Shown here piece after piece: positions 4,321 through 58,549 of a DNA stretch of 64,000 nucleotides. Source of the DNA: Pontederia crassipes (lineage: Eukaryota; Streptophyta; Magnoliopsida; Commelinales; Pontederiaceae); contig CM060198.1 of assembly GCA_030549335.1 (NCBI GenBank), positions 49,751,353-49,815,352 on the forward strand. Reading direction: 5' to 3'. Every line of letters begins with the position of its first letter. Position 1 is the first letter of the stretch. A model generated the notes under the pieces. That model ran no database searches. It worked only from the letters and a program-made list of their open reading frames with translations, and was not told where the DNA came from. The position numbers were made by a program, and so were the translations under genes.

Positions 4321-4376
4321 CCATTGACCTAATTTCCTTGATTTTAATAAGAGAAACAAAGGAGGAGGGGTCCCGC

Positions 4377-4834: not shown

Positions 4835-5310
4835 AGCCCCGCCTTCTTCCCTCTCTCTTCTCCGGGGCCAGAGAGGAGAGGGGTGGGGGCGGCCGCCCCC
4901 TCCTCTTCTCCCTTCAGTTGCCGATGCTCAGGCGACCCCACCCTCTCCGTCAGCCACCCTCGATATTGACGTCTTCCCTTGCCGGCGAGGACGTTGATAA
5001 TCAGAGAGAGAGGAGGGGTGATATTATATTTTTATTTTAATCTTATTTTATTATTTATATTTATTTTATTATTTTAATAATTTTTTGATGTAGAGGGCAG
5101 TCTGCGTGGCAGTGTCACATGGGACAGTTGCCTGCATGGCGGAGAGAGAACATCATCCCGTAGCTTAGCAATCGGAGAATGGGCGTTGTAGTGAAATGGG
5201 CATTCCGTGAAAGAAGTTAAAAGCTGGAAGGTAATCTAGTTACATAGTAAAGTTGGAGGATAATGAGAGAATGGTCAAAGTTGGAGAATACTTGACATAA
5301 TTTATCCACT
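4835..5310. repeat. Non-coding block shared with segment B
   Basis: A GC-rich stretch (4835-5010) is followed by sequence from about 5090 with AAGTTGGAGG, ACTTGACATAATTTATCC and GTGGCGGAGAGAG words. The latter part resembles one arm of the foldback family at 21585-22253. The same order is present at 47974-48410. No coding potential is visible beyond low-complexity ORFs. Confidence 0.5.
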
Positions 5311-6025: not shown

Positions 6026-6227
6026 TGTAATGGAACACGTACATCAGTTTACTCGGTCATCAACCACCTCAACGATCATCGAGTCTAGCACTTGCATATC
6101 CCCTGCCACTATTTTTATACCTGAATGCTAGGATTGCCACTATGCAAGTTGTATATATAGACACACATGTATGTGTTGTGTTTGTGGGGAATATAATATA
6201 CTTTCTCTGCGTGTATTTTTAGTAGCA
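6026..6227 (+). mobile_element. Copia 3' LTR (segment A)
   Basis: It begins TGTAATGGAACACG directly after a polypurine tract and ends about AGTAGCA. It includes a TATATATAGACAC stretch that may be its promoter. The matching LTR in segment B is 49261-49460. Length near 200 bp. The element's 5' half is missing. Confidence 0.6.
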
Positions 6228-6863
6228 CCCCCAAACTAATGCTCAGAACACCTGATCGACAGGATTTTGAAAGATGCTATCTAATTTCATGATATTTTTT
6301 ACTTTGATAAGTTAACATAAATTTATACAAAAGAATATTCAAATACAATAAATTTAATTTTAACGAAAGGAAAAACTATATGATACTTAATGACTTATGA
6401 GTTATAGACTTTTATCTATCAAATATTCTATCCTTACTAATGTTCATATTTATATGCATGCCAACTATTAAAAGAGCAACCATTTATCTCATCATCGTCA
6501 TTTATTCAACCTACAACGATGCAAGTACAAAAGAAAATTTCAATTAGCATACATTCATTACATAAAGTCACCCAATAGTAATGTATAAATCATGCATAAA
6601 CTGTTAACACACACTAACAATCAAATTCATATCAATATGCATAAATATAGCACCAGTAATAGGATTGTGCACTTCAAAATTATGAGAATAGGAGTCTATT
6701 TATAAGATTTTGGAATAAATTAATTTCAATTACCAAAATTTTGAATTCTGATCTTCTAATTAATTTGAACTTTTATCACAACTAAAAGTCCAAAAGAATT
6801 AACTCTTATGTGAATTTTAAATTTCAAACCAACCCAAACTCCTTTCTTATTTATTATTTCGAA
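6228..6863. other. AT-rich intergenic DNA, no gene seen
   Basis: Collinear with 49461-50094 in segment B. I see no open frame, RNA gene or repeat of note. It ends with GAA at 6861-6863, the target duplication of the CACTA element that follows. Confidence 0.7.
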
Positions 6864-7830
6864 CACTACAACAAAATATGTTTATTGGGACAAAAAAATT
6901 TGGTTCCAAACTCATCAATTTTGGTCTCTATTTCTTTTCGGGACAAAAATTTTTTTAGCCTCCATTGGTTCCTAAAAGTTGGTCTTTAAAAGTTTTGGGA
7001 ACAAAAAATTTGTGTTGAATTCCAAAAGTATCACTTTTAGACACTAATCTATTGGTCCCTATAAAATTATGCAATGGTCCCTAATAACTACCTTTGGTCC
7101 CAAATCAAAATAGTTTTGGCAACAAAAAAATCAAGTAATTGACACCAAAAAATTGGTTCCTAATAATATACTTTTAGGAACCTAGAGGTTGGTCCCTAAT
7201 AATATATTTATAAAGATCAACATGCTGGTCCTCGTATATATTTATCTCCAACAATGTACTAGTAGTCAATTTATGAATTTCTAAATTTACAGACATTAGA
7301 CAATAAAAATTAAGATGCAAAAAGGATTTCAGCCACAAAATTTCTTATTCATCCTTGATTCATTACAAAAGTAATGCTTAAAAAATATTAGAAGTGTCAT
7401 CCACAAAACTTTATATTACCCCTCTATCCACAAATCTTATGTAATTTGTTTCTGCAACACATACTTGAAGACTTGATTAAGAGCTCAAGCAGTTCTTCCA
7501 AGCACTGTAAATCAATCGTTTAACCATCCGGAAAGAAAAGCACGAACACAAATTTCATTCCTTATCTTCAGAAATCATGAGAATGCTGAGATTTGTCTGG
7601 CTACCATACTCTTGTGGTCCTCCTCCAGCAACCAAGCACAGTGTCCAACTATCCAAGTAGTCCAGTTGACAACATGCAGATATTTGCTTCTCAATGATGA
7701 CCCATCAGTGGATGAACTCATGCATGGCTGTTTCAAGAAAAAAAAAAGAAGACCAAAAGATTTTTATAACAAGGAAAAATCCACAAGTAACAAAGAAGTA
7801 CTGCAGTGACATGGGACACTTGCTACATAT

Positions 7831-7876
<46 letters not shown>

Positions 7877-8045
7877 TGCTTGAAGATTGAAGACCCACTG
7901 AATTAGCTGTGACAGGCATTACATGGCGAGTGCACCTTGTCCAAATCTGAGTTGGTCGTGACACTGCCAGAATATGCTCAGATATATTAGATGCCATGCA
8001 CATAGCAACATCTCCAAATCTATAAAGGTTTATGGCATCACTGAC

Positions 8046-8741
8046 TCTTGAGTAAGTCTTTTGATTGCGACGAGCTGGCCATCCTCTAGGCATCCCTTGT
8101 AAACTTCTGCAAACCCACCCATGCCTATGATGTTCTCTGCAAAGGAAGGAAAAAAAAAAGAAGAACAAAGGAAGAATCAGTTTACATTTTGCAATGAATC
8201 AGACAGCTAAAACGTTCAGGACCATGCATCGAAATCTAGCTCGAAATGAGAAGAGCCATGTTCAGATTTCCACAGCTTGAGCATGCTGATGAGTTGATTC
8301 CAGTGCGAAAGACAAATCAATGGAGGGAAGCGTTACCTGGACTGAAGTCATTCGTAGCACTTCGGAGCTCCATCAGAGTAAAGGTCTTCTAGGAAGGCTT
8401 AAAGAAGGGCTGCGACTCATCATGATCAAATGTCGTATCCATGACCAACAAATTAACATCTCCGTCAGTTGAATCCGGTTCTGAAACTTGAGCGCCCTCC
8501 GCATTGCTCTTCTTCGACTGCTTCGCGACACCGAAGGGCGGGAAGCTCGACAGCAGCCTCAACGACCTCTTGCACCATATGCTGACGATTCCTTTCCAGA
8601 GCGGGTTCTCCTTCGACGCCATTGCTGCGTCAGGGTATGAAGTGCTGGCCTTGGAGGAGCCATTCTCCGAATCCGAACTCCTCATGTTTTCTTCCAGGAC
8701 GCATCTTGGGGAGCCTTCTTCCCTGTTTTCCTCCTCGTCCT
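8046..8741 (-). pseudogene. RBK-type receptor-like cytoplasmic kinase fragment
   Basis: On the minus strand the first exon (8741-8337) encodes an acidic, serine-rich leader, then NPLWKGIVSIWCKRS, SSFPPFGV, a stop where RBK family members have tryptophan (FFKPS-stop-KTFTL), and ELRSATNDFSP. A donor (CCAG/GTAACG) ends it and an acceptor (TTTGCAG) starts the next exon at 8136, which joins in phase to [15 protein letters not shown] and [10 protein letters not shown]. These are the glycine-rich loop and the ATP-binding lysine of class VI RLCKs (ROP-binding kinases). Everything past the N-lobe start is absent. An upstream exon may lie at about 8925-8836 (MESLLEFKDW). The intact introns show capture at the DNA level into the CACTA. 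It is not a functional kinase gene. Confidence 0.8.
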
Positions 8742-10269
8742 CTGCACACACCAAACAAGATTTGATTCTTAGCTACATGCATGTAATCCATTTTTTTTCT
8801 TTATCCTGCAACAGGAAGTCTATATAATGTTCAATGTACACATCAAACCTCTCGAAGATGTGCGCGCCGCTCGAATGACCAATCTTTGAATTCTAGGAGG
8901 CTTTCCATTCCGATCTGAACAAACATGCAATTCAACCAGTTGATATAAGAGTTACTGCTGATCCGAAACATGATAAAATTTCAGCTCCCAGTACTGGAAA
9001 AGAGTTACTTTGCGAATTAGGTACCTTGAAGGGGACGATGACGCAGAACAAGAACCATTGCTGATCTTAATTAGGGACACCTTGGACTCCCTTAAGAAAA
9101 CTTCGACAATAATTTGAGTTAACTACTGACCTCTTGTTATCGTATCAAACTAATATTGGTATCCACAAGGAAAAATAAAATGCAATATAGGGCTCATGAT
9201 TTTACCTAGTGATCTCCAAATAGGTGCTGGCGGTGGGTGAAAAGCAGGAGCACCTGCATAGCCTGCGCGAGGATTTTAGTCGCCACCAGTTCACATCTGC
9301 TTACTTTAATCGTCAGAGTTACTTTAATCTTCTGAAGGATAACTGTGTGTTATTTTTAAATAAAACAAATAGAAAATTTACCTGCTATAATAATCAAACA
9401 CACATTTCATCTGAAAGGATAACAAAGAGAGAGGGCAGTCATTTGAACCCTATTAAGTTGGAAATTCATTTATCCTCCTTACTGCTGGAAGAAAGTCAAG
9501 TCACCACATGCAATACTTGTATTTTCCAAGAACAAGTAACCAACAACTCACCTAATATTCCTCTCAAAACAAAATTCACTTAATTAGTATTCAAAATTAT
9601 ATCTTCTGAAAGATAACTGTGTGCTATTTTTAAATAAAACTAAAAGAAAATGCACAAAACTATAGCTATGTTCGCCAGAACATAAAATAATTCATCAATA
9701 AATGGGTCTAGATAAATATGATATAAAATATCAGAAAACACCATGATCATTGGATGAGCTGTTATAGATAGCAGAACAAGCTCAAATAAGTGAAGTTTCA
9801 TGGCAAATTAGCCGACAAAATTAGTGTTACTTTTAGGAGTAGAATCCAGGTAGGTGATCATTTCAGGAAAGCTTAAACTGATAGAAGGGAAAAACATAGC
9901 TCTTGTAAGAGAAGAGATTGATTACATTATGATTCAGTTAATTACATAGTGGACCTTCCATCATGCCAAGGTCTAGCATGCAATTGTTCCTTATGAGTTA
10001 TAAATCAGATTTTGTATGAAAAACTGACCACTAGCAGAAGCCTGCATGCCGGCATCACCGAAGACATTTCCATACTGATCATTATGTGCATGTTTCAGGT
10101 AGAACATACTATCTCGTAGTTGTAAGAAGAACAAGACCAGTTGAACAAATATATAAATTCATTAACAAGTAGCAGATATTTCCCAATTACATTCTTAGAG
10201 GTCCATTAACAAACACTTTGTCCGCATATGTGGCAGATAAACATAGCAGAAGCTGCAGAACATGGAGAG

Positions 10270-10700
10270 GCCGCCTTGGCTGCGATCGCAGCGTTGCAGC
10301 CATGGAGTAGATGATGAAGTTTGCTAGGAGGAGCATGACGGAGGTGGGCGTACAGGAGAAGACCTGGAAGAGCCAAACGAAGGAGGAGTTCATCTCCTGC
10401 TGGACCCTGCCCAAGATCCTCTGGAGGACCTCGTAGAACAGGACCCGCCGGAGCTAGAGGGCATAGCTCTGGAGCTCGCGGACGATGAACACCATGGAGG
10501 AAAAGGCCTTCTTTACGGAGCAGCAGGCCAATTCGCCCGCCTCCGCCATCTCAGCTGCTTCCCATCGCTTCTTCTTCTCCTTGATGTTACGGAGGGAGAG
10601 CAGCTACTCTACCCGGCTGGTGTTCTCCTCCACGATTGCCGGCACAACCTCAGTTAGTCACTCCGGAGGTTGCGACTGGATGGGGTGCCCACGACGGCTC
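10270..10700 (-). pseudogene. Host gene fragment, probably TPR-like protein
   Basis: The minus strand reads VKKAFSSMVFIVRELQSYAL, a TAG stop, LRRVLFYEVLQRILGRVQQEM, SFVWLFQ, then SVMLLLANFIIYSM. The pattern of a paired charged region followed by a hydrophobic LLANF-YSM segment resembles uncharacterised plant tetratricopeptide-repeat-like proteins. That match is from memory and is moderate. One in-frame stop, and the TPR part itself missing, mark it as a captured fragment of the CACTA. Function cannot be stated. Confidence 0.45.
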
Positions 10701-10827
10701 GACCACTGAAATGAGGCGCTAGGTTTTCCGGGAGGTAGTGCAGGAGTTAGGGCCGACTGAAATCATATTAACAAAAAGGAATAAGATTTGTGAACCACTG
10801 AAATGGGGATCAAAATTATGATTGGAC

Positions 10828-12129
10828 TAGGGGTGGCAATATTCCCCACCCCCGCGGGCCCGTGGGAATTCTCCATTCGAGATCCCGCATTCGGAGATTT
10901 TTTTCCCGCGGGGGCGGGATGGGGGCCAAATTGCCCCCGCCCCCCTTTTCGGGGATCGGAGCGGAGGTAGTTCCCCCGCCCCGTCGGGGTTCCGAATCTC
11001 CGATATATTATTTATAATTAATAATTATTATAATTATATTTATTAGATTACATCTGAACCGTTCATTTTACATACATATATATATATATATATATCAAAT
11101 TAAACCCTAATAACCCTCTTCTTCTTTCTCCCTTTTCTCTACAGTGCAGTGACCCAATCGGCCGCTCCGGCTGAAACCACTCGTAGCCGCCGACCGCCAG
11201 CCACCGACCGCCAGCATCAATGTCTGTCTCCGGCGATTATGGGATCTTCACAAGACACAAGGTATTCATTTCAATGTGGTCGTCGAGGGGATCGCCGTGG
11301 GCGGCGGCATCATCGTGGTCGAGGGGATCGCCGTCATGCCGTCACGCCGTGGTCGTCGTCGTGTGGTCGTCGTGGACGGCGGCCGAAAGGGGCGGCGGCG
11401 TCATCGTCGAGGCCGGGTCGTCGTGGGCGACGGCCGAAAGGGGCGGCGGCATCATCGTGGTCGAGGGCATCGTCGTTGAGGCTAGGTCGTCGTCGTCGAG
11501 GGCGAGTCATCGTCGAGGGCGGCGGCATCATCGTGGTCGTCTAGGCGGCGGCGTCATCGTGGTCGTCGGCGGCCGAAATCGTCTGCGTAGAGGCGATTTC
11601 GCCGCCGCCCCTTTCGGCCGATTTCACCTCTGCGCACAGTGCGCAGAGGCGAAATCGGTCGAGTGGCGGTGATTTCGCCGCCGCCGCTGCGAAATCGGCG
11701 GAGTGACGACGATTTCGCCGCCACCGCCGTGCGAAATCGCCTCTGCGCACTGCGCAGAGGCGACGCATAGTGTTGCCTCTGAGCGCAGAGGCGATTTTGC
11801 CTCTGCGCGCGGTGCGTGAGGTGATCACCTTTGCGCACTGTGCGCAGAGGAGAGTCACCTCTGCGCACAGTGCAAATTTTTTTTTGATTTTTTTTGTAAT
11901 TTTTTTAATTACTCGTATAGTTGGTTATTTTATCATTTTTTCACATTATGTAATAAAAAATTCGGGGAATCAGATTCCCCGCGAGGATTCGAGGCCCCGC
12001 GGGGATCGGGGCGGAGAATAAAATTTCCCCCGGACCGAGGATTCGGGGCGATGTCGGGGGCGGGGTCGGGTCGTCGGGGTCGAGGCGGGAGTGGTGTCCC
12101 GCCCCGAACAGCGGCGGGTGCCATCCCTA
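10828..12129. mobile_element. Nested non-autonomous hAT-like element
   Basis: Ends TAGGGGTGGCA (10828) and TGCCATCCCTA (to 12129) form an 11-bp inverted repeat with one mismatch. It is flanked by a perfect 8-bp duplication GATTGGAC (10820-10827, 12130-12137), as hAT superfamily elements make. The 1302-bp body is very GC-rich at both ends and in 11150-11870, where CGTCGTCGAGG-type repeats create long but meaningless arginine-rich ORFs on both strands. No transposase is encoded. It lies in the right subterminal zone of the CACTA, so it inserted after that element formed. Confidence 0.88.
11627..11873. repeat. Cluster of CCTCTGCGCAC palindromes
   Basis: Perfect or near-perfect hairpins of the form CCTCTGCGCAC-n-GTGCGCAGAGG occur at 11627-11649, 11740-11760, 11776-11791 (shorter) and 11828-11850, with a fifth partial copy from 11858. 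All sit inside the hAT-like element. No coding role is apparent. Confidence 0.85.
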
Positions 12130-12350
12130 GATTGGACCCTAAAATTAATGCTTATGAAATATTATTAAACATCAATATCTTAATTGGTTCCTGTAATATT
12201 TGTATTAGACACAAATTAAATTTTTATCTCTAAAATTAGAAAGAATTTGGGTCCAATTTTTCATTGGTCCTAAATAAATATTTTTTGGAGATTTAATCAT
12301 GATTGGTCCCAATAATGTAGTCCCTAAATGTTAATTTTGTTGTAGTGGAA

Positions 12351-13190
12351 CTCATGTCTCATCGTCAATTATTTCTTATTTTTCAAACTAGATGAACAAA
12401 TATGATTCTTGTCTATTAGTTTTCGTGAAAAATAATTAAACTATTATTTATTTAATCATAAAAAATGGGGGTGTCACAATTCTACTATATACATTCAGAT
12501 CAATGTTGTTAAGATCGGACTGGACAACGAATCGGACAAGTCTCCATTTTAAGTCGAACCGGTCGGACCGGTCGAATCGATCGGTCGGACCGATTAATAA
12601 TAAAATATTATAATTTAGTATAATATATTAAATTATTTATGTAACAAATATATATCAAAAAATTTTGACATAATAGAGTAAAAGATTATAATAAAATTAA
12701 ATCATAATATTTTGAAATTTAACAAGTTTAAATTATAAAATAAAATATTATAGTCAAAATAATTTTGTATAAAATATTTCTTAATATGTTACCTTCATTA
12801 TTAAAAAATTTCTTCCACACGTTTTCAACATGATCTATCTCACACTTGCCTTTTTCTCCTCCCAAATTCTCTCTCTCATTCCTCCAATTAATCTGGCCTC
12901 TTTATCTCTCTCATTCCTAAAATCTTTCTCTGTCTCTCCATTCCCAACATTTCACGCGTCTCTCTCTCTCATCTCTCTCACATTTTCAAGTTTTCAACGC
13001 ATTTATTTCTCCCTCACGTCAAATCCAATTCAGCCGGTTCTCAATTCGCGACTTAATTCGATTTTATCTGATTTTTGACCTGATTTGATCGATTTAATTC
13101 AGTTCAAAGGACAATTTGTTAATCTTCAATATGATTTTTGTTAGCGGCCGATCACAATATTGATTCAGATGGCATGGGATGCTCAGATTT
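12351..13190. other. AT-rich intergenic DNA shared with segment B
   Basis: Collinear with about 50095-50950. It includes a run of CGGTCGGACCGGTC-like words (12555-12600) followed by very AT-rich sequence, then a pyrimidine-rich tract (12830-13010). No gene seen. Confidence 0.6.
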
Positions 13191-13199
13191 GCGTTTAAT

Positions 13200-13998
13200 C
13201 CAATTGATTAACCAATGTTCAGGTTTGTCCAGATCCTAATTTTCACAAACGTACGAATATTATTGGTAAATAATTTTCACACATATGTCATCAACCATAT
13301 AAGTTGTCCCATTAAACGGCCATAAATAACGCAGTCAAGGCGGCCGTGCAGCTCGCTGTGCAGCTAATAAGTGTGCTCCATCAATGGCATATTTTTCCCA
13401 GCAGGACGTTGAATTGTCCGTCTTATTCATACATGCATGTTACCCATCCGACGGAGGATCCAAATGAATGAATTTTGGTACATGTATCTATCAGATCGAA
13501 GATCTTCTAGTTGCTGTATTTCATTTTATACATTCCTAATGTTCAGAGTTGTCCAGGTCTTAAATTTTCACACACACGGATAAGAATGTTATATGCAAAT
13601 AGTTTTCAAAGACAGAGAAATGGCAATACAAATGCATTTGTTCAGATAAATGTGTGTGCGCTACTGCTGCTCATGTCTCAGCTCTGGTCAAGTGGTCAGA
13701 CGTTCAACTCGGACTCCTATTTTTTTTACCCAGTAGAAGTGAAGTCTATGGAGATGGGCAACGCAACAACAACGATATTAGTGTTTTTTTCACCTCTGAT
13801 TAAATTAAATTAAATGGTATAAACCAAAAGAATGTCCAACGCAATCACAGTACAAGTAATAAAACACACTTGTCATCAACTAAATGCGATACTCGTTAAA
13901 ATCCTCTTTGTCTTGCAATTAAATGGCCATAAATAATTCGGTCAACGCGGCCGTGTGAACTGTGAAACAATCTCCGCTGTGCAGCTAATAAGTGCTCC
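13200..13998 (+). promoter_or_regulatory. Repeated SRLK upstream modules
   Basis: Two kinds of module recur here and before the other SRLK copies. One contains ATTAAACGGCCATAAATAA followed by GGCGGCCGTG and GTGCAGCTAATAAGTG (about 13310-13380 and again 13918-13995). The other contains GTTGTCCAGGTCTTAA, CAAAGACAGAGAAATGGCAA and a GTCTATGGAGATGGGCA stretch (about 13545-13800). Similar blocks precede S2 (16760-17220), S3 (51390-52085) and S4 (54770-55370). The shared CCATAAATA could serve as a TATA element. The module at 13310 has no SRLK exon directly after it. Confidence 0.55.
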
Positions 13999-15496
13999 AT
14001 GAATGACATGAAGAAGATTACTAGTATTTCATCTTACTTTGCTCTGATCATTAACAACTCAATCATGAAGAAGATTACTAGTATTTCATCTTACTTTGCT
14101 CTGATCATTAACAACTCAATCATGAAGAAGATTACTAGTATTTCATCTTACTTTGCTCTGATTATTAACAACTCAATCATGAAGAAGATTACTAGTCCCA
14201 TGACTACTCTTCCATTCCGGCTCGAAATCATCGTCATCTTCTTCTTCTTCTCCACTCTCTGCCCCTCTTCCAGTGCACAAGTTGACATTCTAACAGCAGC
14301 ACAACCCCTCACCGATGGCCAGACCTTGATCTCTGAGAACGGAAGCTTTGCTCTTGGCTTCTTTAGCCCTGAGAACTCAAATGATCGCTACGTCGGCATA
14401 TGGTACAACAAGGTCTCCGTCCAGACCGTCGTCTGGGTCGCCAACCGCAAGGCTCCGGTGTCCGACCGTCAAGGAAGTCTATCCATCAACTCCAGAGGGA
14501 CCCTCGTCATCACCAACAAGAACTCGACCGTCGTCTGGTCCTTGACCTGGGCCACGTCCAGGCTAAACAGCCCGGTCGCCCAGCTGCTGGACAACGGAAA
14601 CTTCGTATTGAAAGAAGCCAATAGCAGCAGCAACAATCCGGACAGCTTCTCGTGGCAAAGCTTCGACCAGCCGACAGACACGCTGCTGCCAGGCATGAAG
14701 TTCGGCCTGAATCTGACTAGCGGACTCAACCGCAATTTGACTGCTTGGACAAGCACTAGCGACCCCGCGCCGAGCGAGTATACGAATGGCATCGACATCC
14801 ATGGCTATCCTCAAGTGTTTCTGTGGTCGGGTTCACGCCCTAAGTGGCGCGGGGGCCCGTGGAATGGCCTCCGTTTCGCCGGTATCCCCGAGATGATGAC
14901 CTATGCGGGCATCTTCTCCTTCGACTTCGTCATGAACAGTGAGGAGGTATCCTACACGTTCTACATCACTCAGCCCTCCGTCATATCGAGATTAATCTTG
15001 AACCAGTCCGGCATCATGCAGAGACTCATTTGGATCGAGGAGAGCAAGGCCTGGAATCCCTTCTGGTTTGTGCCCAAGGACCAGTGCGACTACATTTCGC
15101 TGTGCGGTCAGTATGGCATCTGCGACCCCAACGCCTGGCCAACATGCAGCTGTGCACAGGGTTTCCAGCCGAAGAATCCGACGAACTGGGCTTTGCGGGA
15201 TGGGTCAGAAGGGTGCGTCAGGAAGACGGCCTTGGACTGCCGGAACCGGACGGATGGGTTCTTGTTGGTGCGCGGTGCAAAATTGCCAGACACGTCGAGC
15301 TCATGGGTCGACATGAGCTTGACCCTGGAACAGTGCAGAGCAACATGTTTGAGCAATTGTTCATGCACGGCTTATGCCAGTGCTAATATCAGTCGCGGGA
15401 TTGGATGCATCATTTGGATTGTGAACTTGACCGACATGAGAGTGTACACCAATGGCGGACAGGATCTCTACATTCGAATGGCAGCAGCCGATTTGG
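13999..15496 (+). CDS. S1: SRLK ectodomain gene, kinase-less
   Basis: The exon encodes a full SRLK extracellular region: signal peptide, B-lectin/GNA-type domain with WVANR and [14 protein letters not shown]-locus glycoprotein domain with [11 protein letters not shown], an EGF-like cysteine set ([16 protein letters not shown]), and a PAN domain ([13 protein letters not shown]). The core start by comparison with S2 is the ATG at 14179; upstream in-frame ATGs at 13999, 14008, 14065 and 14122 come from a repeat. A donor (GG/GTACGT) follows 15496 in the same phase as S2. If unspliced, the frame runs into the intron and stops at 15591, giving a secreted lectin-PAN protein of 470 residues from 14179. 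The next exon is a damaged relic (16647) and no kinase exons precede S2. It may be a decoy-type protein, part of a fused transcript, or a gene losing function. Confidence 0.7.
14008..14178 (+). repeat. Three 57-bp units of 5'UTR plus start codon
   Basis: Units at 14008, 14065 and 14122 each begin ATGAAGAAGATTACTAGT, the same 18 bases that start the S2 and S4 coding regions. They continue with 39 bases matching the S2 leader just before its ATG (17342-17380). The S2 leader has an in-frame TGA two codons before ATG; here it reads TCA, so the frame is open. The translation is MKKITSISSYFALIINNSI three times. S3 has one such unit (52095-52151); S2 and S4 have none. Confidence 0.95.
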
Positions 15497-16646
15497 GTAC
15501 GTATCCATCAATTCCTTTGAAACTGTTAAGACTAATAATGTGGTTTCAAATTAATGCTCATTATTTTAGTATTGGCATATGTTGGAAATAAAACATCGAA
15601 AATCAATGATTAATTTTAACAACGAAAGAAAATGAAGATGAACACATAGATTTAACGTGATAAAATTCTCGTGATCAATGTGAAAAAGAGAGAAACATCA
15701 GGAAGTAAAGGAGGTCGTTGAAAAGAATTTATTATAAAAAAAATACATCATATAAAATCTTAACGGTCCAAGTCCTTCGCTATCGTCGCAGATCCTTATT
15801 TTTCCTTCTTTCTTATTTTTTTCTTTCATAATTTTATATACAGAGTACATAATTTAATGTACATCAATCATCAGGTATTGTGGCAGCCCTGGATTCTTTT
15901 TGGTATCGGGGTTGCATTTTCTATGTATTTTATATGTATTTAGTAGGAAATTGGGAGCCAACAGAAGGTTCCTTGTAGACTTGGACAAGGAACTTTGCAT
16001 CGGTCAAGTGCTCTCAGCAGCCGTCCATCTAACACGTAGAATTTTGATATTGTAGTCTTAACTCCCAATTTGTCTTTTTTTAAAAGAAACTCAATGATCC
16101 CATTTGGATGCAAATTAAATGTTCTAGAACAAAAATAAAAATTTTTGTAATCCCACTCTGACATAAAATTTTCACCCCATAAAAGACAATATGTTCACAT
16201 GAAATTTCAATTTTAATCCAGCAAATTGATATAATGAGAAGAAGGAAACAATTTTATAAAACATTAATCTCTCTCTTATTATCAAATTAAATCATCTCTT
16301 TTTACTCTCTATTTTATATTAATAAATTATCTTTTTTCTCTCATAGGAATATGACATTGATAAAATAGTTTATTTATAATTATTATTTAATAATATTTAT
16401 TTCTGACTTTTATTTTTTAAAATAGATAAATAAAATAGTTATGACAAAAAAAATTAAAGAATATGACAAAAAATCGAAAAAAAATAGGAAAAATAAAAGA
16501 TAAATTAAGTGGTAAGAAAATTAATATTTATTACTCATTAGATATTATAAATAATTTATATATAATGAATAATAAAAATATTTCTTAATAAATCTGAATT
16601 TATTTTTTTGTGATTGGTACTGACTGATGGCACTTGATGATATTAG
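15497..16646 (+). other. S1 intron-like region with replaced block
   Basis: Collinear with 53454-54574 downstream of S3, except that about 15577-15875 (starting TGTTGGAAATAAAACATCG) has no counterpart there and replaces the sequence encoding the intron stretch seen in S2, S3 and S4. S3 in turn has extra sequence near 53935-54160. The rest is AT-rich and non-coding. Confidence 0.5.
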
Positions 16647-16725
16647 GAAGAGAACGGAAACTAAATGGTTGGCTGTGTATTGGATATTCTGATTCTTCTA
16701 TTATATACATTATTTCTGATGACGT
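16647..16725 (+). pseudogene. S1 transmembrane exon relic
   Basis: After an acceptor (GATATTAG) the sequence follows S2 exon 2 (GAAAAGAATC versus GAAGAGAACG) but lacks 22 bases beginning with AGCACCATAGCCGCGACG. The membrane helix frame is therefore lost, and similarity stops after GATTCTTCTA. The S3 relic at 54575-54690 shares the same deletion, so the lesion predates the segment duplication. Confidence 0.8.
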
Positions 16726-16759
16726 CGAGTGCTCACATTTCAATCCATGTGCTTTTATT

Positions 16760-17380
16760 CCTAGAATGTTCAGAATTGTCCAGGTCTTAATTTTCACACA
16801 CACACATAAAAATATTATATGCAAATACTTTTCAAAGACAGAGAAATGGCAATAAAATTGCATTTGTTCAGATAATGTGTGCTCACGTCTCGGCTCTGGT
16901 CGAAGTGGTCAGACGTCCAACTGGGACTCCTATTTTACCCGGTAGAAGTCTATGGAGATGGGCACGCGACAACTTTGTTTTCTTCACCTCTGATTAAATT
17001 AAATGGTATAAACCAAAAGAATGCGCAACGCAATCACAGTATAAGTAATAAAACGCATGTCATCAACTAAATACGATACTCGTTAAAATCCTGTTTGTCT
17101 TGTCCAATTAAACGGCCATAAATAGTTCAGTCATGGCGGCCGTGTGAAACAATCTGCGGTGCGGATGGCTCGCCGTGCAGCTAATAACTATAAGTGCTCC
17201 ATGAATGGCATGTTTTCCCGGCTGGACGTTGAACTGTCCATCTAGTTCATACTACATGTTACCCATCCAATGGAGGATCCAACACCAATCATGCAATTTG
17301 GTACATGTATCCATCAGCACAAACTTCTTTCTCGTTGCTGTATTTCATCTTACTTCACTCTGATTATTAGCAACTGAATC
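16760..17380 (+). promoter_or_regulatory. S2 upstream region with TATA-like site
   Basis: It contains the shared modules described before S1, with CCATAAATAG at about 17117-17126, some 255 bases before the S2 ATG. The leader immediately before the ATG (17342-17380) is the sequence that became coding in S1 and S3. Transcription start not determinable by eye. Confidence 0.45.
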
Positions 17381-20300
17381 ATGAAGAAGATTACTAGTCC
17401 CATGACTACTCTTCCATTCCGGCTCCAAATCATCGTCATCTTCTTCTTCTTCTTCTTCTTCTTCTCCACTCTCTGCCCCACTTCCAGCGCACAAGTTGAC
17501 ACTCTAACAGCAGCCCAACCCCTCACCGATGGTCAGACCTTGATCTCTGAGAACGGAAGCTTTGCTCTCGGCTTCTTTAGCTCTGAGAACTCAAATGATC
17601 GCTACGTCGGCATATGGTACAACAAGGTCTCCGTCCAGACCGTCGTCTGGGTCGCCAACCGCAAGGCTCCGGTGTCCGACCGTCAGGGAAGTCTATCCAT
17701 CAACTCCAGCGGGACCCTCGTCATCACCAACAAGAACTCGACCGTCTGGTCCTTGACCTCGGCCACGCCCATGCTAAACAGCCCGGTCGCCCAGCTGCTG
17801 GACAACGGAAACTTCGTATTGAAAGAAGCCAATAGCAGCAGCAACAATCCGGACAGCTTCTCGTGGCAAAGCTTCGACCAGCCGACAGACACGCTGCTGC
17901 CAGGCATGAAGCTCGGCCGGAATCTGACGAGCGGACTCAACCGCACTTTGACTGCTTGGGCAAGTACTAGCGACCCGACGCCGAGCGAGTACACGGTGGG
18001 CATGGACATCCATGGCTATCCTCAATTGTTTCTGTGGTCGGGTTCACGCCATAAGTGGCGCGGGGGCCCGTGGAACGGCCTCCGTTTCACCGGTATCCCC
18101 GAGATGATATCCTACACGACCATGTTCTCTTTCGACTTCGTCGTGAACAGCGAGGAGGTCTCCTACACGTTCTACATCACTGAGCCCTCCGTCATATCGA
18201 GGTTGATCGTGAACGAGTCCGGCATCACTCAGAGGCTCATTTGGATCGAGGAGAGCAAGGTCTGGAATCCTTTCTGGTTTGCGCCCAAGGACCAGTGCGA
18301 CGACATTTCGCCGTGCGGTCAGTATGGCATCTGCGACCCCAACACCTGGCCAGTATGCAGCTGTGCGCAGGGGTTCCTGCCGAAGAATCCGACGAACTGG
18401 GCTTTGCGGGATGGGTCAGAAGGGTGCGTCAGGAAGACGGCCTTAGACTGCCGTAACCGGACGGATGGGTTCTTGTTGGTGCGGGGCGCGAAATTGCCAG
18501 ACACGTCGAGCTCATGGGTCGACATGAGCTTGACCCTGGAACAGTGCAGAGCAACATGTTTGAGCAATTGTTCATGCACGGCTTATGCCAGTGCTAATAT
18601 CAGTCGCGGGATGGGATGCATCATTTGGACTGTGAACTTGACCGACATGAGAGTGTACACCAATGGCGGACAGGATCTCTACATTCGAATGGCAGCAGCC
18701 GATTTGGGTACGTATCTAGTAATCCTTCTGCAACTGTTAAGACTAACACCGTGGTTTCAAATTAATGCTCATTATATTAGCATTGGCATCTCCATCACAG
18801 CATCTGGTAAACTTTGAAAACAGGGACGACCTTTGTGGCAACCCTGTGGATTCCTTTCAGTAGTGGAGTTGCATTTTGTATGTAGTTTTCTTCGGTGTAG
18901 ACTATGAGTCATTTAGTTGCGACTTGGGCGCCAAAACAGAAGGTTACTTGTTGACTTGGAGAAAGAAGTTTGTATCGGTCAAAAGCTGTCAGCTGCCTTC
19001 CATCTTACACGTAGAATTTCGATCTCGTCTTAACTCCCACTTTTTCTTCTTTGAGGAAAAGAAAAGTAACCAGTTTGCCTGAATATCCAAATAGAACCAC
19101 ATTGCACCTGATATAGTTAATCAGAAATATAATAAGATCGAACTAGAAGATTAGCAGCTGCATCCAGCTCTGTGTAATCTGAATTTTTTTTTGGTGCTTG
19201 GTATTAACTGATGGAAGTTGATGATATTAGGAAAAGAATCAAAACATTCTAAATGGAGCACCATAGCCGCGACGTTGGTTGGCTGTGTATTGGGGATTTT
19301 GATCCTTCTACTGATAGGCTTTTGCGTCAAGAAAAGGAAGCAAACAAGACAAAGACTACGAGAAGGAGGTAGAATCAAAGTCGTTTCATTTTTACTGTAA
19401 CATGATGCTTGGCATACTAATTTTCTCTAACTTGACAGATATGTCAAGGGGCGTCTCATCCTTAAGACAGAAAAGAGTTGATGAAATCAGTGATAACAAA
19501 AACTTGGACCTTCCCTTGTATGATTTAACCACAATCATACATGCCACTGATGACTTCGCAGCTGAAAACAAGCTCGGCGAGGGAGGATTCGGTCCTGTGT
19601 ACAAGGTATAACTGCTTCTACGAACAATGAATCTGGTTCAGAAGAAACATTAACTTCGCTATCGTTGAGTGCAGGGGAAATTGGGGGACGGTCAAGAAAT
19701 AGCAGTAAAAAGGTTAGCAAAGACATCGGTTCAGGGCATCGACGAGTTCAAGAATGAGGTCATGCTAATTGCAAAGCTTCAGCACAGGAATCTCGTTCGG
19801 CTCCTGGGCTGCTGCGTTGAAGAAGAGGAAATGCTCATCTACGAGTACATGGACAACAAAAGTTTGGATGTCTTCCTATTCGGTCAGTAGGATGGACTCC
19901 TCGTAATCTAAATATCATGCATGTTTTTTTTTCTACTATATATGATTTCTTTCCTGCTGATTTTAATGCTCAGATAAAACAAAACGCTCGCAACTGGACT
20001 GGCAAACTCGCTACAACATCATAATAGGGATCGCTCGAGGGCTTGTTTACCTCCATCAAGATTCTAGATTCCGAATCATCCACAGGGATCTCAAAACTAG
20101 CAACATTCTTCTGGACAAAGATATGACACCCAAGATATCAGACTTTGGCTTAGCGAGGATATTCAGAGAGGATGAAACAAAAGTAAATACGAAGAGAGTG
20201 GTGGGAACATAGTAAGTATAACCTGCAATTTGTTTCCCTAAATGCATGATTAGTTAACATGTGTCTCGGCCTCTCAACCAAATCATTGCAGTGGCTACAT

Positions 20301-20838
20301 GTCTCCTGAATATGCCATGGATGGAGTCTTCTCGATAAAATCAGATGTGTTCAGTTTTGGGGTCTTGGTATTGGAGATCATAAGCGGCAAGAAAAACAGA
20401 GGCGTTTATGCACATGAACGTCATGAAAATCTTCTAGGACATGTCAGTATCACAGACCAAATATTTCTTCTTTCATTGATGGTATGTTTTCTTTTCATAT
20501 TTTCAGAAACTAATCCAATGTTTTTTCAGGCATGGAGTCTATGGAAAGATGGTCATGCTCTGGAGTTAGCTGACGCATCAATGGGAGAAGCGTATCCTAT
20601 TGCAGAAGTTATAAGATGTCTAAATGTTGGGCTCCTGTGTGTCCAAGAACGTCCAGATGACAGGCCGACAATGTCGGCTGTGGTGTTCATGTTGGGCAGT
20701 GAGAGTTCAGATGTACCCCAACCAAAGCCACCTGGGTTCATCGCAACAAAAGGTCCCTTTGAAACCGACTCATCATCAAGCAAACAAATATCGTACCCCC
20801 TAAACGAGGTGTCACTTACAATGTTTGAAGGACGGTAG
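17381..20838 (+). CDS. S2: intact G-type lectin S-receptor-like kinase
   Basis: Seven exons give an open 845-residue protein: 17381-18707, 19231-19368, 19439-19605, 19675-19882, 19974-20211, 20292-20442, 20530-20838, all with GT-AG junctions in phase. Order: signal peptide (about 1-38, with eight phenylalanines), B-lectin domain, S-locus glycoprotein domain, EGF-like region from Cys306, PAN domain ending near 440, membrane helix 452-475 followed by KKRK, then a Ser/Thr kinase. Kinase landmarks are intact: glycine loop GEGGFG at 535-540, Lys556 in IAVKR, HRDLK with Asp652, Asn657, DFG at 670-672, then [17 protein letters not shown]. It ends in a SLTMFEGR tail, usual for SRLKs. Such receptors sit in the plasma membrane, bind ligands outside and phosphorylate partners inside, often in defence or self-recognition; the ligand is unknown here. 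It is the only complete SRLK in the window. Confidence 0.93.
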
Positions 20839-22253: not shown

Positions 22254-22429
22254 CCGATTTGGTTTGGATCGTGCGTAGGTTGAAGAAAAAAAAAGAAAAA
22301 AAATCGCGCCGTTGTGAGCCGTTGAGATTGAATGGGACGATGACCATTGGACGCACGATTTGAACCCTTGATGAGAAAATAAACGGCAACTCATGAATTA
22401 AATGTTGGATGAATATTGTTTCAACGTCC

Positions 22430-24811
22430 ATCTATGGTGAGGGTGATCTCACTAGAGTTGGACCAGTCTCTGTCTGCGTTGCCTGCACCACCGCTGCCGG
22501 CTTTATTTGGCGGCCTGGGAAGGGGCAACGAAGCGCCTTGGCTCACCAGCATCCGATACACCTCGTCCATCGTCGGCCTGTCTTCGCTCGCTTCTTACAC
22601 GCACAAGAGCCCCCACTCGAACGCATCTCAACACCTCGGCCGCCGAGTACGAGCCTTTCACCGATTCGTCGAGCAGCTCCAGTGATTTGCCTTGCAGCCA
22701 CAACGTCCAAGCCTGCATTGCATATGCGTTCATCCATCACTCACGCACGAAGTCGACGGCATACATAAGTTACGATCGAGGAGACAACTTACGACGTCTA
22801 AGAGGCCTTGTTCCTGCAAATATGAATTCCTCCTACCGCTTAAGATCTCCAGCACTATTACTCCGAAGCTGAAGACGTCAGATTTCACCGAGTAGATCCC
22901 TCCTGTTGCATACTCCGGGGCGATGTACCCTCTGTTAAAGGCACAGCCAGCAACTGATTTATATGTCCACAGTACTTACGGTAATTAATTTATTTATATA
23001 CTTACGGTGTCCCAACTCGTTTTGATCTCTTTGGATGCGTTTGGCAACCATTCCGATTGTTCTGTCAAACGAACTCCGTGACGGGAACAAAAACGTGATC
23101 TGGGCGAGAATATTTTGAGAAATGTTCTCGCCCAAATCGAGAACATTGACTTTTTTTCTCGAGCCGCCATCCCTTTTTTTAAATTTCATCTATTTTTTAA
23201 ATTATTTTAGTTTATATGTATATATAATTTATAATATATTAATACGTTATTAATGATATTATAAAATAATTTATTAAATGTTATTAATTCAAAACTATAA
23301 AATAATTAATAAATATTTTATTAATTAAACTATTTAATTATTTTATTAAAAAATAAATTATATTTGTATTTTAAAATGTACGTAAATTATAATATTAATA
23401 ATATTTAAAATATTTAATCAAAATAAATAAAAATAATATTAACAATATAACAATTTACGTAAAATATAATATTAATAATATATTCTTATTTACTATAATT
23501 TTATACCTCGTAAAATAATAAATTATATTCTTAGTTCTTACTTTTTATCCAAACACCCACTAAAATTTATCCATCACATCAATCTTTTAAATCTTCATCG
23601 TTACACTTTTTCATCTAAACACCAACTTAAACTTTCCTATCACATCAATTAGTTCTCGAGAATAAATATTTTATAATGTTCCCGTACCAAACGCAGCCAA
23701 ATAGTTGCAATGCCGAAGTCTGAAATAGGATGTTCCTTGGCTTGAGGTCTCGGTGTATGATGTTTAGTCTGGAATCCTGATGCAAGTAGAGTAGGCCTCT
23801 GGCGATGCCAAATATGATGGATGTCCGCTTTTTCCAGTTCAAGCTTGCACTCTTCCTTTTATCTGGTCAAAAATTTTCCAGCACTCGTTAGTACATCGTT
23901 TGTGTGTATGTGTGTGCGCGCAATACTGCATTGGAATTGTGCACACAAATCGCGTAAGTATACCAAACGAGGAAAATGCATATGTATAGCGACCGCTCTA
24001 CACCAAAGTGTAAAACGTCCGCTCTACCGTCCGATTTTGAATGAAGGGTGTCATCTTGTGCGATCTTATGGGATGTATCGCAATCATTCAAATTTAGATG
24101 AATGGCTTAGATGGAATAAGAAAGGGAAGTAACTAAGAACTTGCACGTAATTTGGCGGTCCCCAAAATTTCACCAGCACTCTTCGCGCTCCCAATCTTGC
24201 CGCTGCTCCCTCCTCCTCCATTTGCTGCTGACGCAATGCTACTATTCTCGATCCTACAGCTGCTCTCTCCTCCGCTGTTCGCTGATGTCGCGCCGCCATG
24301 CTCCCGATTCTGCAGCTGCTCCCGATTCATATTCTACAAATATGAAGGTATCTAAGCTCTTGTTCTCCAAGTGCTCATATATCAAGATTCTTTCATTTCC
24401 TTCGATACAGCAGCCAAGAAGACGGACGAGATTCCTGTGCTGCAGCTGTGTTATCAGCAGCACCTCATTTTTTAATTCTTCCTAGCCTTGCAACGAAGAT
24501 TTGGACAACTTTTTGGCTGCAATTTCCTGCCCATCTCTCAGCTGACCCTGCATTATGGTTGAACATTGCTTCAGTAATCTCTCAACTCTGAAGAGTATGC
24601 ATCAATTTCCAATATTGTTGAGTGGTTTTGCGGAAGATGCATGACTAATCAATGGTGATGCATCTATTACCAATTCATGCCTACATACCTTGTAAACTTC
24701 ACCAAAACAACCTTGACCAAGTTTATTCTCGTTGGAGAAATTTCTAGTGGCGGCTTTAATGGTATCTAAATCATACAAAGGCAACTCCTGTAACTCTAAG
24801 AAACCTGGCAA
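22430..24811 (-). pseudogene. S5: decayed antisense receptor-kinase relic
   Basis: Reading the minus strand, kinase exons appear in family order: LPLYDLDTIKAATRNFSNENKLGQG with a donor after EVYK (about 24800-24690); GQLRDGQEIAAKKLSKSSLQG, a stop, then [13 protein letters not shown] (24556-24340); [15 protein letters not shown] and [12 protein letters not shown] (23842-23700); [24 protein letters not shown] (about 22930-22820); and a last exon ending SSEITLTIDGR (about 22730-22430). Lesions include the TAG stop, valine changed to alanine before the ATP-binding lysine, a lost DFG-side segment, frameshifts in the last exon and a TIR element at 23030-23701. No ectodomain or membrane exon is found upstream. 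It is an SRLK/CRK-type relative and is dead. Confidence 0.82.
23030..23701. mobile_element. AT-rich TIR element inside S5
   Basis: Ends TTTGGATGCGTTTGG (23030) and CCAAACGCAGCCAAA (to 23701) form a 15-bp inverted repeat with one mismatch. The 670-bp body is AT-rich and non-coding. It separates two kinase exons of S5. No convincing target duplication, so the superfamily (hAT or Harbinger-like) is open. Confidence 0.6.
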
Positions 24812-47429: not shown

Positions 47430-47479
47430 TTGATCTTATTTTCTTGATTTTAATAAGAGAAACAAGGAGGAGGGCCCAC

Positions 47480-52085: not shown

Positions 52086-53453
52086 ATGAATGACATGAAG
52101 AAGATTACTAGTATTTCATCTTACTTTGCTCTGATCCTTAACAACTCAATCATGAAGAAGATTACTAGTCCCATGACTACTCTTCCATTCCGGCTCGAAA
52201 TCATCATCATCATGATCTTCTTCTTCTCCACTCTCTGCCCCTCTTCCAGTGCACAAGTTGACACTCTAACAGCAGCCCAACCCCTCACCGATGGTGAGAC
52301 CTTGATCTCCGAGAACGGAAGCTTTGCTCTTGGCTTCTTTAGCCCTGAAAACTCAAATGATCGCTACGTCGGCATATGGTACAACAAGGTCTCTGTCCAG
52401 ACCGTCGTCTGGGTCGCCAACCGCAAGGCTCCGGTGTCCGACCGTCAGGGAAGTCTATCCATCAACTCCGGAGGGACCCTCGTCATCACCAACAAGAACT
52501 CGACCGTCGTCTGGTCCTTGACCTCGGCCTCGTCCAGGCTAAACAGCCCGGTCGCCCAGCTGCTGGACGACGGAAACTTCGTATTGAAAGAAGCCAATAG
52601 CAGCAGCAACAATCCGGACAGCTTCTCGTGGCAAAGCTTCGACCACCCGACAGACACGGTGCTGCCAGGCATGAAGCTCGGTCTGAACCTGACGAGCGGA
52701 CTCAACCGCAATTTGACTGCATGGACCAGCACTAGCAACCCGGCGCCGAGCGAGTACACGATGGGTATGGACATCCATGGCTATCCTCAAATGTTTCTGT
52801 GGTCGGGTTCACGCCCTGAGTGGCGCGGGGGCCCGTGGAACGGCCTACGTTTCACCGGTATCCCCGAGATCATATCCTACGCGACCATGTTCTCTTTCGA
52901 CTTTGTCGTGAACAGCGAGGAGGTCTCCTACCCTCCGTCATATCGAGGTTGATCGTGAACGAGTCCGGCATCACGCAGAGGCACATTTGGATCGAGGAGC
53001 GCAAGGTCTGGAATCCGTTCTCGTTTGCGCCCAAGGACCAGTGCGACGACATTTCGCCGTGCGGTCAGTAAGGCATCTGCGACCCCAACGCCTGGCCAAC
53101 ATGCAGCTGTGCACAGGGTTTCCAGCCGAAGAATCCGACTTACTGGGCTTTGCGGGATTGGTCGGGAGGGTGCGTCAGGAAGACGGCCTTGGACTGCCGG
53201 AACCGGACGGATGGATTCTTGTTGGTGCGCGGTACAAAATTGCCAGACACGTCGAGCTCATGGGTCGACATGAGCTTGACCCTGGAACAGTGCAGAGCAA
53301 CATGTTTGAGCAATTGTTCATGCACGGCTTATGCCAGTGCTAATATCAGTCGCGGGATTGGATGCATCATTTGGACAGTGAACTTGACCCACATGAGAGT
53401 GTACACCAATGGCGGACAGGATCTCTACATTCGAGTGGCAGCAGCCGATTTGG
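52086..53453 (+). pseudogene. S3: broken SRLK ectodomain gene
   Basis: The segment B counterpart of S1, with start ATGs at 52086, 52095 and 52152 and one 57-bp leader unit. The lectin and S-locus glycoprotein parts are open until about 52926, where 19 bases present in S2 (starting ACGTTCTACATCACTGAG) are missing. This shifts the frame to a stop at 52952. A second lesion turns the tyrosine of GQYGIC into TAA (53068-53070). The remainder, including EGF-like and PAN coding, is recognisable to the donor after 53453. No kinase exons follow, only the damaged membrane exon at 54575-54690. Confidence 0.92.
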
Positions 53454-54574
53454 GTACGTATCCATCAATCCCTTTGAAACTGTTAGACTAATACTGTGGT
53501 TTCAAATTAATGTTCATTATTTTAGTATTGGCATCGCCATCACAGCATCTGGTAAACTTTGAAGACAGGGATGACCCTTGTGGCAGCCATGGATTCTTTT
53601 CGGTATCGCGGTTGCATTTTATATGTATTTTTCTTCGGTCTCAGTTGTCTGGGAGATTTAGTAGGAACTAGGAACTTGGGAGGCAACACAAGGTTCCTTG
53701 TAGACTTGGAGAAGGAACTTTGCATCGGTCCAGTGCTCTCAGCAGCCGTCCATCTAACACGTAGAATTTTGACATTGTAGTCTTAACTGCCATTGTCTTT
53801 TTTAAAAGAAACTCAATGATCCCATTTAGATGCAAATTAAATATTCTAGAACAAAAATTAAATTTTTTGTAATCCCACTCTGACAAAAAATTTTCATCCC
53901 ATAAAAGACAATATGTTCAGATGAAATTTCAATTTTAACCCCATTCTCAGCCCCCAAAGAATCTTGAAATTTCAATTTTTGTTATCATTATATTTGGGGC
54001 CCCTAAGATTAAAAAAAAGTGTTTAGATGAAATTATGTGAATAATAAAATTTTTCGGGTGAAACATAAGGAATGTGATTAAATAAATCATTTTATTTAAA
54101 TTTTTATTTTATTTAATCAGCATTCTAAACATCACATTTTTTTATTCCAGAAAATTTATATAATGAGAAGAAGGAAACAATTATATATAACATTAATCTC
54201 TCTCTTGTTATCCAATTAAATCATCTCTTTTTGCTCTCTATTTTATATTAATAAATTATCTTTTTCTCTCATACGAATATGACATTGATAAAATAGTTTT
54301 ATTTATAATTATTATTTTATAAATATTTATTTCTGACTTTTTATTTTTTAAAATAGATAAATAAAATAGTTATGAGAAAAAAAATTAAAGAATATGACAA
54401 AAAATCGAAAAAAAGGAAAAATAAAAAATAAATTAAGTGGTAAGAAAATAAATATTTATTACTCATTAGATATTATAAATAATTTATATATAATGAATAA
54501 TAAAAATATTTCTTAATAAATCTGAATTTATTTTTTTGTGATTGGTACTGACTGATGGCACTTGATGATATTAG

Positions 54575-55540: not shown

Positions 55541-58277
55541 ATGAAGAAGATTACTAGTCCCATGACTACTCTTCCATTCCGGCTCGAAATCATCGTCATC
55601 TTCTTCTTCTTCTTCTTCTTCTCCACTCTCTGCCCCTCTTCCAGTGCACAAGTTGACACTCTAACAGCAGCCCAACCCCTCACCGATGGTCAGACCTTGA
55701 TCTCTGAGAACGGAAGCTTTGCTCTCGGCTTCTTTAGCTCTGAGAACTCAAATGATCGCTACGTCGGCATATGGTACAACAAGGTCTCCGTCCAGACCGT
55801 CGTCTGGGTCGCCAACCGCAAGGCTCCGGTGTCCGACCGTAAGGGAAGTCTATCCATCAACTCCAGCGGGACCCTCGTCATCACCAACAAGAACTCGACC
55901 GTCTGGTCCTTGACCTCGGCCACGCCCATGCTAAACAGCCCGGTCGCCCAGCTGCTGGACAACGGAAACTTCGTAGTGAAAGAAGCCAATAGCAGCAGCA
56001 ACAATCCGGACAGCTTCTCGTGGCAAAGCGTCGACCAGCCGACAGACACGCTACTGCCAGGCATGAAGCTCGGCCGGAATCTGACGAGCGGGCTCAACCG
56101 CACTCTGACTGCTTGGGCAAGCACTAGCGACCCGGCGCCGAGCGAGTACACGATGGGCATGGACATCCATGGCTATCGTCAACTGTTTCTGTGATCGGGT
56201 TTCACGCCCTAAGTGGCGCGGGGGCCCGTGGAACGGCCTCCGTTTCACCGGTATCCCCGAGATGATATCCTACACGACCATTCTCTCTTTCGACTTCGTC
56301 GTGAACAGCGAGGAGGTCTCCTACACGTTCTACATCACTGAGCCCTCCGTCATATCGAGGTTGATCGTGAACGAGTCCGGCATCACTCAGAGGCTCATTT
56401 GGATCGAGGAGAGCAAGGCCTGGAATCCGTTCTGGTTTGCGCCCAAGGACCTGTGCGACGTCATTTCGCCGTGCGGTCAGTATGGCATCTGCGACCCCAA
56501 CACCTGGCCAGTATGCAGCTGTGCGCAGGGGTTCCTGCCGAAGAATCCGACGAACTGGGCTTTGCGGGATGGGACAGAAGGGTGCGTCAGGAAGACGCCC
56601 TTAGACTGCCGTAACCGGACGGATGGGTTCTTGTTGGTGCGGGGCGCGAAATTGCCAGACACGTCGAGCTCATGGTTCGTCATGAGCTTGACCCTTGAAC
56701 AGTGCAGAGCAACATGTTTGAGCAATTGTTCATGCACGGGTTATGCGGATGCTAATATCAGTCGCGGGATTGGATGCATCATTTGGACTGTGAACTTGAC
56801 CGACATGAGAGTGTACACCAATGGCGGACAGGATCTCTACATTCGAGTGGCAGCAGCCGATTTGGGTACGTATCTAGTAATCCGTCTGCAACTGTTAAGA
56901 TTAACACTGTGGTTTCAAATTAATGCTCATTATATTAGCATTGGCATCTCCATCACAGCATCTGGTAAACTTTGAAAACAGGGACGACCTTTGTGGCAGC
57001 CCTGTGGATTCCTTTCAGTAGTGGGGTTGCATTTTGTATGTAATTTTCTTCGGTGTAGATTATGAGTCATTTAGTTGCGACTTGGGTGCCAAAACAGAAG
57101 GTTCCTTGTCGACATGGAGAAAGAACTATGTATCGGTCAAAAGCTGTCAGCAGCCTTCCATCTTACACGTAGAATTTCGATCTCGTCTTAAACTCCCACT
57201 TTTTCTTCTTTAAGGAAAAGAAAAGTAACCAGTTTGCCTGAAGATCTAAATAGAACTACATTGCACCTGATATACTTAATCAGAAATATAATAAGATCGA
57301 ACTAGAAGATCAGCAGCTGCATCCAGCTCTGTGTAATCTGAATTTTTTTTGGTGCTTGGTATTAACTGATGGAAGTTGATGATATTAGGAAAAAGAATCA
57401 AAACATTCTAAATGGAGCACCATAGCCGCGACGTTGGTTGGCTGTGTATTGGGGATTTTGATCCTTCTACTGATACGCTTTTGCGTCAAGAAAAGGAAGC
57501 AAACTAGACAAAGACTACGAGAAGGAGGTAGAATCAAAGTCGTTTCATTTTTATTGTAACATGATGCTTGACATACTAATTTTCTCTAACTTGACAGATA
57601 TGTCAATGGGCGCCTCATACTTACGACAGAAAAGAGTTGATGAAATCAGTGATAGCAAAAACTTGGACCTTCCCTTGTATGATTTAACCACAATCATACA
57701 TGCCACTGATGACTTCGCAGCTGAAAACAAGCTCGGCGAGGGAGGATTCGGTCCTGTGTACAAGGTATAACTGCTTCTACGAACAATGAATCAGAAGAAA
57801 CATTAACTTCGCTATCGTTGAGTGCAGGGGAAATTGGGGGACGGACAAGAAATAGCAGTAAAAAGGTTAGCAAAGACATCGGTTCAGGGCATCGACGAGT
57901 TCAAGAATGAGGTCATGCTAATTGCAAAGCTTCAGCACAGGAACCTCGTTCGGCTCCTGGGCTGCTGCGTTGAAGAAGAGGAAATGCTCATCTACGAGTA
58001 CATGGACAACAAAAGTTTGGATGTCTTCCTATTCGGTCAGTAGGATGGACTCCTCGCTCGTAAACTAAATATCATGCGTTTTTTTTCTACTATATATGAT
58101 TTTTTCCTGCTGATTTTAATGCTCAGATAAAACAAAACGCTCGCAACTGGACTGGCAAACTCGCTACGACATCATAATAGGGATCGCTCGAGGACTTCTT
58201 TACCTCTATCAAGATTCTAGGTTTCGAATCATCCACAGGGATCTCAAAACTAGCAACATTCTTCTGGACAAAGATAT
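55541..58277 (+). pseudogene. S4: broken full-length SRLK paralog
   Basis: The segment B counterpart of S2, with the same exon plan: 55541-56865, 57389-57527, 57598-57764, 57828-58035, and exon five from 58127. Lesions by comparison with S2: TGG to TGA at 56192-56194; one inserted T just after (about 56200); an extra A in the membrane exon (about 57390-57395); and a copia element inserted after 58277 in the catalytic-loop exon, just past [14 protein letters not shown]. The DFG and all later kinase exons are not in the window. The HRD histidine-side helix also has LYLYQ for LVYLHQ. The gene cannot make a receptor. Confidence 0.93.
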
Positions 58278-58549
58278 TGTTACGAAAATAGGGAGAGAGA
58301 GATCGCACGAAATACAGAAGAACACGAAGAGGAAAAACGGCGGCGGCTCTTTGTTATAGAATAACGATGATTACAAGATAGGTCTCGGTCTAGACCCCTA
58401 GGGAGTTTATATAGACACTCCCTTTGACAGATGATAGGAATTACATACGAACTGAGACTCTAAATAAATCCCCTGAAAATAGGAATTCTGCTGAAGCGCC
58501 TGACTATATAGGGGGATCAACTGGGTTCAGATTCAAAGCATTATTAACA
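58278..58549 (-). mobile_element. Copia 3' LTR inserted in S4 exon 5
   Basis: Plus-strand ends TGTTACG and TTAACA give an inverted TGTTA/TAACA pair over 272 bp. On the minus strand a purine tract AAGGTGGAGATT (58561-58550) lies directly before the LTR, identifying it as the 3' LTR. A TTATATAGACAC stretch (about 58407) may be its promoter. S4 sequence stops exactly at GATAT (58273-58277). Confidence 0.88.

Follow-up and report, generated by a model that had tools for sequence, protein, structure and literature searches.

A start codon and its leader captured in an in-frame 57-bp repeat of a kinase-less S-receptor-like gene in Pontederia crassipes

What becomes of a gene when its start codon and untranslated leader are taken up into a tandem repeat that keeps the reading frame is the question raised by S1, one of the related genes S1–S4 in a 64,000-nucleotide stretch of the Pontederia crassipes genome (the window, C16:49751353-49815352). 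The preliminary description had proposed such a capture at the 5' end of S1, and both the unit alignment and TRF, which detected an array at 14007-14196 with a period of 57, 3.3 copies, 99% matches and 0 indels, bear this out. An array of this copy number and match level lies far beyond chance expectation, and a chance origin of the S1 repeat was rejected. The window also contains other tandem arrays detected by TRF. The features of S1 are as follows.

13927..13935, plus strand: TATA-like CCATAAATA upstream of the first ATG, a putative promoter element
13999..14007, plus strand: first in-frame ATG of S1 (MND), the counterpart of the S2 ATG at 17201
14008..14064, plus strand: 57-bp unit 1, sequence MKKITSISSYFALIINNSI
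14065..14121, plus strand: 57-bp unit 2, identical to unit 1
14122..14178, plus strand: 57-bp unit 3, with a single C/T difference from units 1 and 2
14179..14196, plus strand: closing 18 bases of the unit, the normal S1 coding start (MKKITS), leading into the normal coding sequence
14179..15496, plus strand: S1 exon 1 with a signal-peptide-like segment, B_lectin, S_locus_glycop and PAN_2, open throughout
16647..16702, plus strand: remnant of the S1 transmembrane exon, shorter than its S3 counterpart

Each unit joins 18 bases of coding start to 39 bases that match the leader of S2, an architecture already proposed and here supported by a match of the S1 unit to S2 over 59 bp (17340-17398, 91.5%). 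The earlier counts of three units in S1, one in S3 (52095-52151) and none in S2 or S4 are correct, as are their coordinates. In-frame ATGs lie 19, 38, 57 and 60 residues ahead of the normal S1 start, in agreement with the claim of up to 60 extra in-frame residues and several possible ATGs, and S1 and S3 indeed have TCA as the second in-frame codon before the final ATG, where S2 and S4 have TGA. A length divisible by three is expected in one third of duplications; together with the frequency at which stretches of this length are open by chance (below), this leaves nothing in the in-frame extension for selection to explain. Where the period of an intragenic tandem repeat is a multiple of three, gain or loss of a unit keeps the frame; the near-identical S1 units share this frame neutrality but differ from such repeats in that the unit takes in a start codon and former leader. 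No start codon repeated in the manner of S1 was found described in the titles and abstract openings of the open-licence literature searched.

The S1 open reading frame from 13999 encodes 530 residues with Pfam matches to B_lectin (4.2e-35), S_locus_glycop (2.6e-33) and PAN_2 (2.7e-23), and with PDB matches to the solved ectodomains of SRK8 (1.6e-116) and SRK9 (3e-109). B_lectin, S_locus_glycop and PAN occur in the order that marks G-type lectins, and these matches assign S1 to the G-type lectin, S-receptor-like family. S1 resembles SRK-type G-type lectin kinases (LecRLK/LecRLP/LecP) in its extracellular domains and their order, its signal-peptide-like start, its position in a tandem array and its having relatives with kinase exons. 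In contrast to SRK-type kinases, S1 has a repeated, longer N terminus and lacks both a kinase and an intact transmembrane exon: none of five S2-derived pieces from the kinase side matched before S2 begins, and the transmembrane exon is truncated. For the same reasons an intact receptor kinase was rejected, and S1 is classified, on its exon content, as a kinase-less relative. Comparison with S2 places a putative GT splice donor after 15496; reading through this splice yields a product of 568 residues that lacks the transmembrane sequence of S2, and reading on into the intron ends the frame at 15591. By sequence alone S1 fits a LecP-like layout, with a signal-peptide-like start and a lectin ectodomain but no kinase, and it fits a pseudogene equally well. 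Upstream of S1, a second promoter and leader copy at 13304..13528 (plus strand) is 75% like 17100-17352, which suggests the trace of a lost gene copy in the array.

The other three genes of the window differ in how much of the receptor kinase they retain.

17381..20835, plus strand: S2, a receptor kinase gene that lacks the unit; its ectodomain exon is open, its transmembrane and kinase pieces can be read, and TGA closes the leader
52086..53490, plus strand: S3, with one 57-bp unit; a 19-bp deletion breaks exon 1, and the transmembrane exon is matched in part
55541..58341, plus strand: S4, without a unit; exon 1 with a +1 frameshift from a one-base insertion, kinase lost midway

Six transmembrane and kinase exon pieces, taken from S2 itself, served as the query set, and a search of S3 with the kinase pieces gave no match. 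The block holding S1 and S2 (about 4.3-20.1 kb; 4321-20124) is repeated, with gaps, at 47427-58277, where it holds S3 and S4; comparison of block against block found no counterpart across the duplication for the stretch 6865-12348. On the S1 side, a 43-bp repeat at 5677-5805 (TRF, 3 copies, 100% matches) is a second expansion, represented by a single diverged counterpart near 49000 in the duplicated block. Exon matches to another S-domain-type kinase gene lie on the minus strand at 22424-24787, with stops in two pieces, and similar opposite-strand kinase pieces stand beside the relatives on C4 and C15 (L035, L038).

Relatives were sought across the genome, which comprises 1.13 Gb in 43 contigs and is plant-like in its gene content. 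The exon search gave 41 match rows from the best 40 of 78 candidates, so that counts of relatives are lower bounds; full-length exon matches at ≥92% number at least nine, comprising S1–S4 and one each on C15, C4, C1, C16 (62 Mb) and C3. A search with the leader brought in one more 5' end, at C15:9345048 (C15a), and the ten 5' ends compared were S1–S4, C15a, C15b, C1, C3, C4 and C16b. All six S2 exon pieces were matched at the C15b, C3, C4 and C16b relatives, and none of the six within the 8.6 kb covered at the C1 relative. The C4 relative (C4:46978500-46990000; L014, L035) is an apparently intact receptor kinase relative with exon 1 open; its leader, which has no repeat, keeps the frame open over 84 codons and contains ATGs at -30, -57 and -60. 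Of the ten 5' ends, S1, S3, C15a, C15b, C3 and C4 have upstream ATGs that are in frame with no stop following, six in all, and S2, S4, C1 and C16b have none.

The unit itself is carried by three of the ten, namely S1 with three copies and S3 and C15a with one each. At C15a, unrelated sequence (starting TGTAAC) follows directly after the 18 shared coding bases, a switch that falls in the region L009:3000-4050, and beyond this 5' end the stretch L009:3000-3666 occurs in high copy number in the genome (3196 first-look candidates, of which the best 40 were scored). The copy may have been split by a transposable element. The 4 kb behind C15a yielded no ectodomain exon, nor did the exon-search matches listed include one at that place; together with the unrelated sequence after the coding start, this makes C15a look dead.

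The sequences at the borders of the unit point to how it arose. S1, S3 and C15a share an upstream junction in which CCWTGAATGACATG runs directly onto AAGAAGATTACTAG, and C15a has TTG where the first ATG otherwise stands. The S2 counterpart reads CCATGAATGGCATG and lies about 130 bp ahead of the leader, and the S2 ATG at 17201 is inside a short upstream open reading frame (14 codons from 17201, 26 from 17165). CATG ends both flanks of the deleted stretch, a microhomology, and a 2-bp GT is common to both ends at the unit junction; these traits fit a 57-bp tandem duplication plus a microhomology deletion. In the proposed history, 39 leader and 18 coding bases would have been tandemly duplicated between ends sharing the GT, and a deletion between the CATG motifs would have fused the ATG of the upstream open reading frame to the main frame, the sequences compared being compatible with either order of the two events. 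Both together would yield the one-unit state seen in S3 and on C15, to which S1 would later have added two units by slippage or unequal exchange. Since the one-unit form also occurs on C15, it is probably older than the S1 expansion. Two codons ahead of the normal ATG, in frame, TCA occurs at six 5' ends out of ten and CCA at two, with TGA confined to S2 and S4, and the TGA is thus probably derived. The 5' regions of S1 and S3 share 99.5% identity across 182 bp, the exons of the two genes differ by about 0.11 synonymous changes per site, and an exon tree of nine rows does not group them. This suggests local exchange between S1 and S3 at the 5' region, and windowed differences likewise suggest a patchwork of exchange.

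Whether the captured leader would be translated depends on where transcription begins. In an alignment of 12 upstream stretches, CCATAAATA is common to most, being changed in S4, disrupted in C1 and missing in C16b. In S1, position -3 is T for the ATGs at 13999 and 14003, the second of which is out of frame and ends two codons later. It is G for the ATG at 14008, the first from 13921 onward with a purine at this position, and A for the later unit ATGs. If S1 is transcribed from upstream, scanning ribosomes would mostly initiate at 14008 and add 57 residues, and the later unit ATGs would take leaky starts. The extension would include a peptide such as ITSISSYFALIINNSIMK and would precede an unchanged hydrophobic core of the signal peptide, giving a longer n-region. 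As judged by hydropathy rather than a dedicated predictor, the strongest hydrophobic 19-residue stretch still lies within the normal signal peptide (mean 1.78 vs 0.67 in the repeat). The units may affect signal peptide use, translation or localisation, as the preliminary description had proposed, because their ATGs precede the normal start and carry a purine (A or G) at -3.

A comparable arrangement is reported for human TREM2 (PMC10250343). There the signal peptide is extended by 30 residues through an in-frame AUG further upstream, output from the standard AUG is repressed, and most of the long form is degraded. S1 likewise has an upstream in-frame AUG with no intervening stop, which lengthens the n-region (by 30 residues in TREM2 and by a predicted 57-60 in S1). 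Unlike the experimentally demonstrated TREM2 extension, that of S1 is a prediction, and it would have arisen by tandem duplication. A preprint reports that extensions expected to disturb signal peptides appear at expected numbers in ribosome profiling and are depleted in proteomics (PMC11623489). The effect of the S1 extension would most likely be neutral or mildly repressive, the likeliest outcome being that a secreted lectin-like protein is made in equal or smaller amounts, with no selected role.

The alternative that survives best, a tentative one that retains appreciable plausibility, is that transcription starts near the normal ATG, for instance close to the pyrimidine-rich TTCTTTCTC preceding the S2 leader, and that the extension is never translated; S1, in which the TTCTTTCTC stretch is deleted, would then be silent or initiate inside the array. 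Transcription of S2 from the TATA-like site would place nine ATGs, from 17133, before the normal one, an unfavourable leader that speaks for a nearer start, although splicing of an undetected intron within this leader could strip these upstream ATGs. The stretch directly before the 39-bp leader is absent in S1 and S3, as this alternative would have it. Against it, the ten 5' ends remain recognisably alike over about the last 100 bp before the first ATG, with gaps in C3.

The reading that we favour, and consider reasonably probable, is that S1 is a kinase-less array member with a history of duplication and deletion, whose upstream start would lengthen the N terminus to no selected end. The repeat would most likely be an ordinary by-product of gene duplication with no important function. 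A 39-nt stretch (13 codons) is open by chance in 44% of random draws of local composition and in 52% of the 39-mers of the window; given these frequencies, and the 84 open codons of C4 without a repeat, the open S1 leader was rejected as a signal of selection. Substitutions unique to S1 comprise 8 synonymous and 7 nonsynonymous changes (omega about 0.25, binomial p 0.008 vs neutrality), which, with exon 1 open in S1 while broken in S3 and S4, hints at past or present constraint. However, the broken S3 has a similar pattern (10 synonymous, 12 nonsynonymous; p 0.014), and that of S1 may only reflect the time before damage.

A functional extension, in which the number of units adjusts signal-peptide use, or the translation of a secreted S-domain protein serving the intact receptors as decoy or partner, is unlikely. 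Exon 1 of S1 remains open, its units are in frame with adequate start contexts, and kinase-less lectin architectures of this kind, LecRLP and LecP, are described (PMC5485988), all of which would accord with such a role. However, the units of S1, S3 and C15 differ by three bases in all, too few for a test of selection and bearing no sign of it, and the one-unit copies reside in broken genes, S3 being frameshifted and the C15 copy having no ectodomain exon in the 4 kb behind it. Still less credible is the stronger form, in which a copy-number-variable coding minisatellite that carries the start codon acts as a heritable tuner of signal-peptide use, each 57-bp step adding 19 residues and one start codon and so setting the amount of secreted S-domain decoy at the cell surface. 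It is equally hard to credit that misassembly turned a one- or two-unit array into the three-unit state, as the second three-copy repeat on the same side (43 bp, 5677-5805), with its single diverged counterpart in the duplicated block, might hint, because the array is short (190 bp), the window is free of N and lies inside a 64.7-Mb contig, unit 3 is distinct from units 1 and 2 by one base, and one-unit copies exist independently at S3 and on C15.

S1 is a degenerate receptor paralogue whose leader has turned into potential coding sequence, with a function that is probably absent or minor. For annotation the locus carries a warning, since an automatic call could begin S1 at 13999 and give a protein 60 residues longer. 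For the gene family it offers a clear example of an untranslated leader and the ATG of an upstream open reading frame becoming possible coding sequence through duplication and deletion; copies with zero, one and three units coexist within a single genome.
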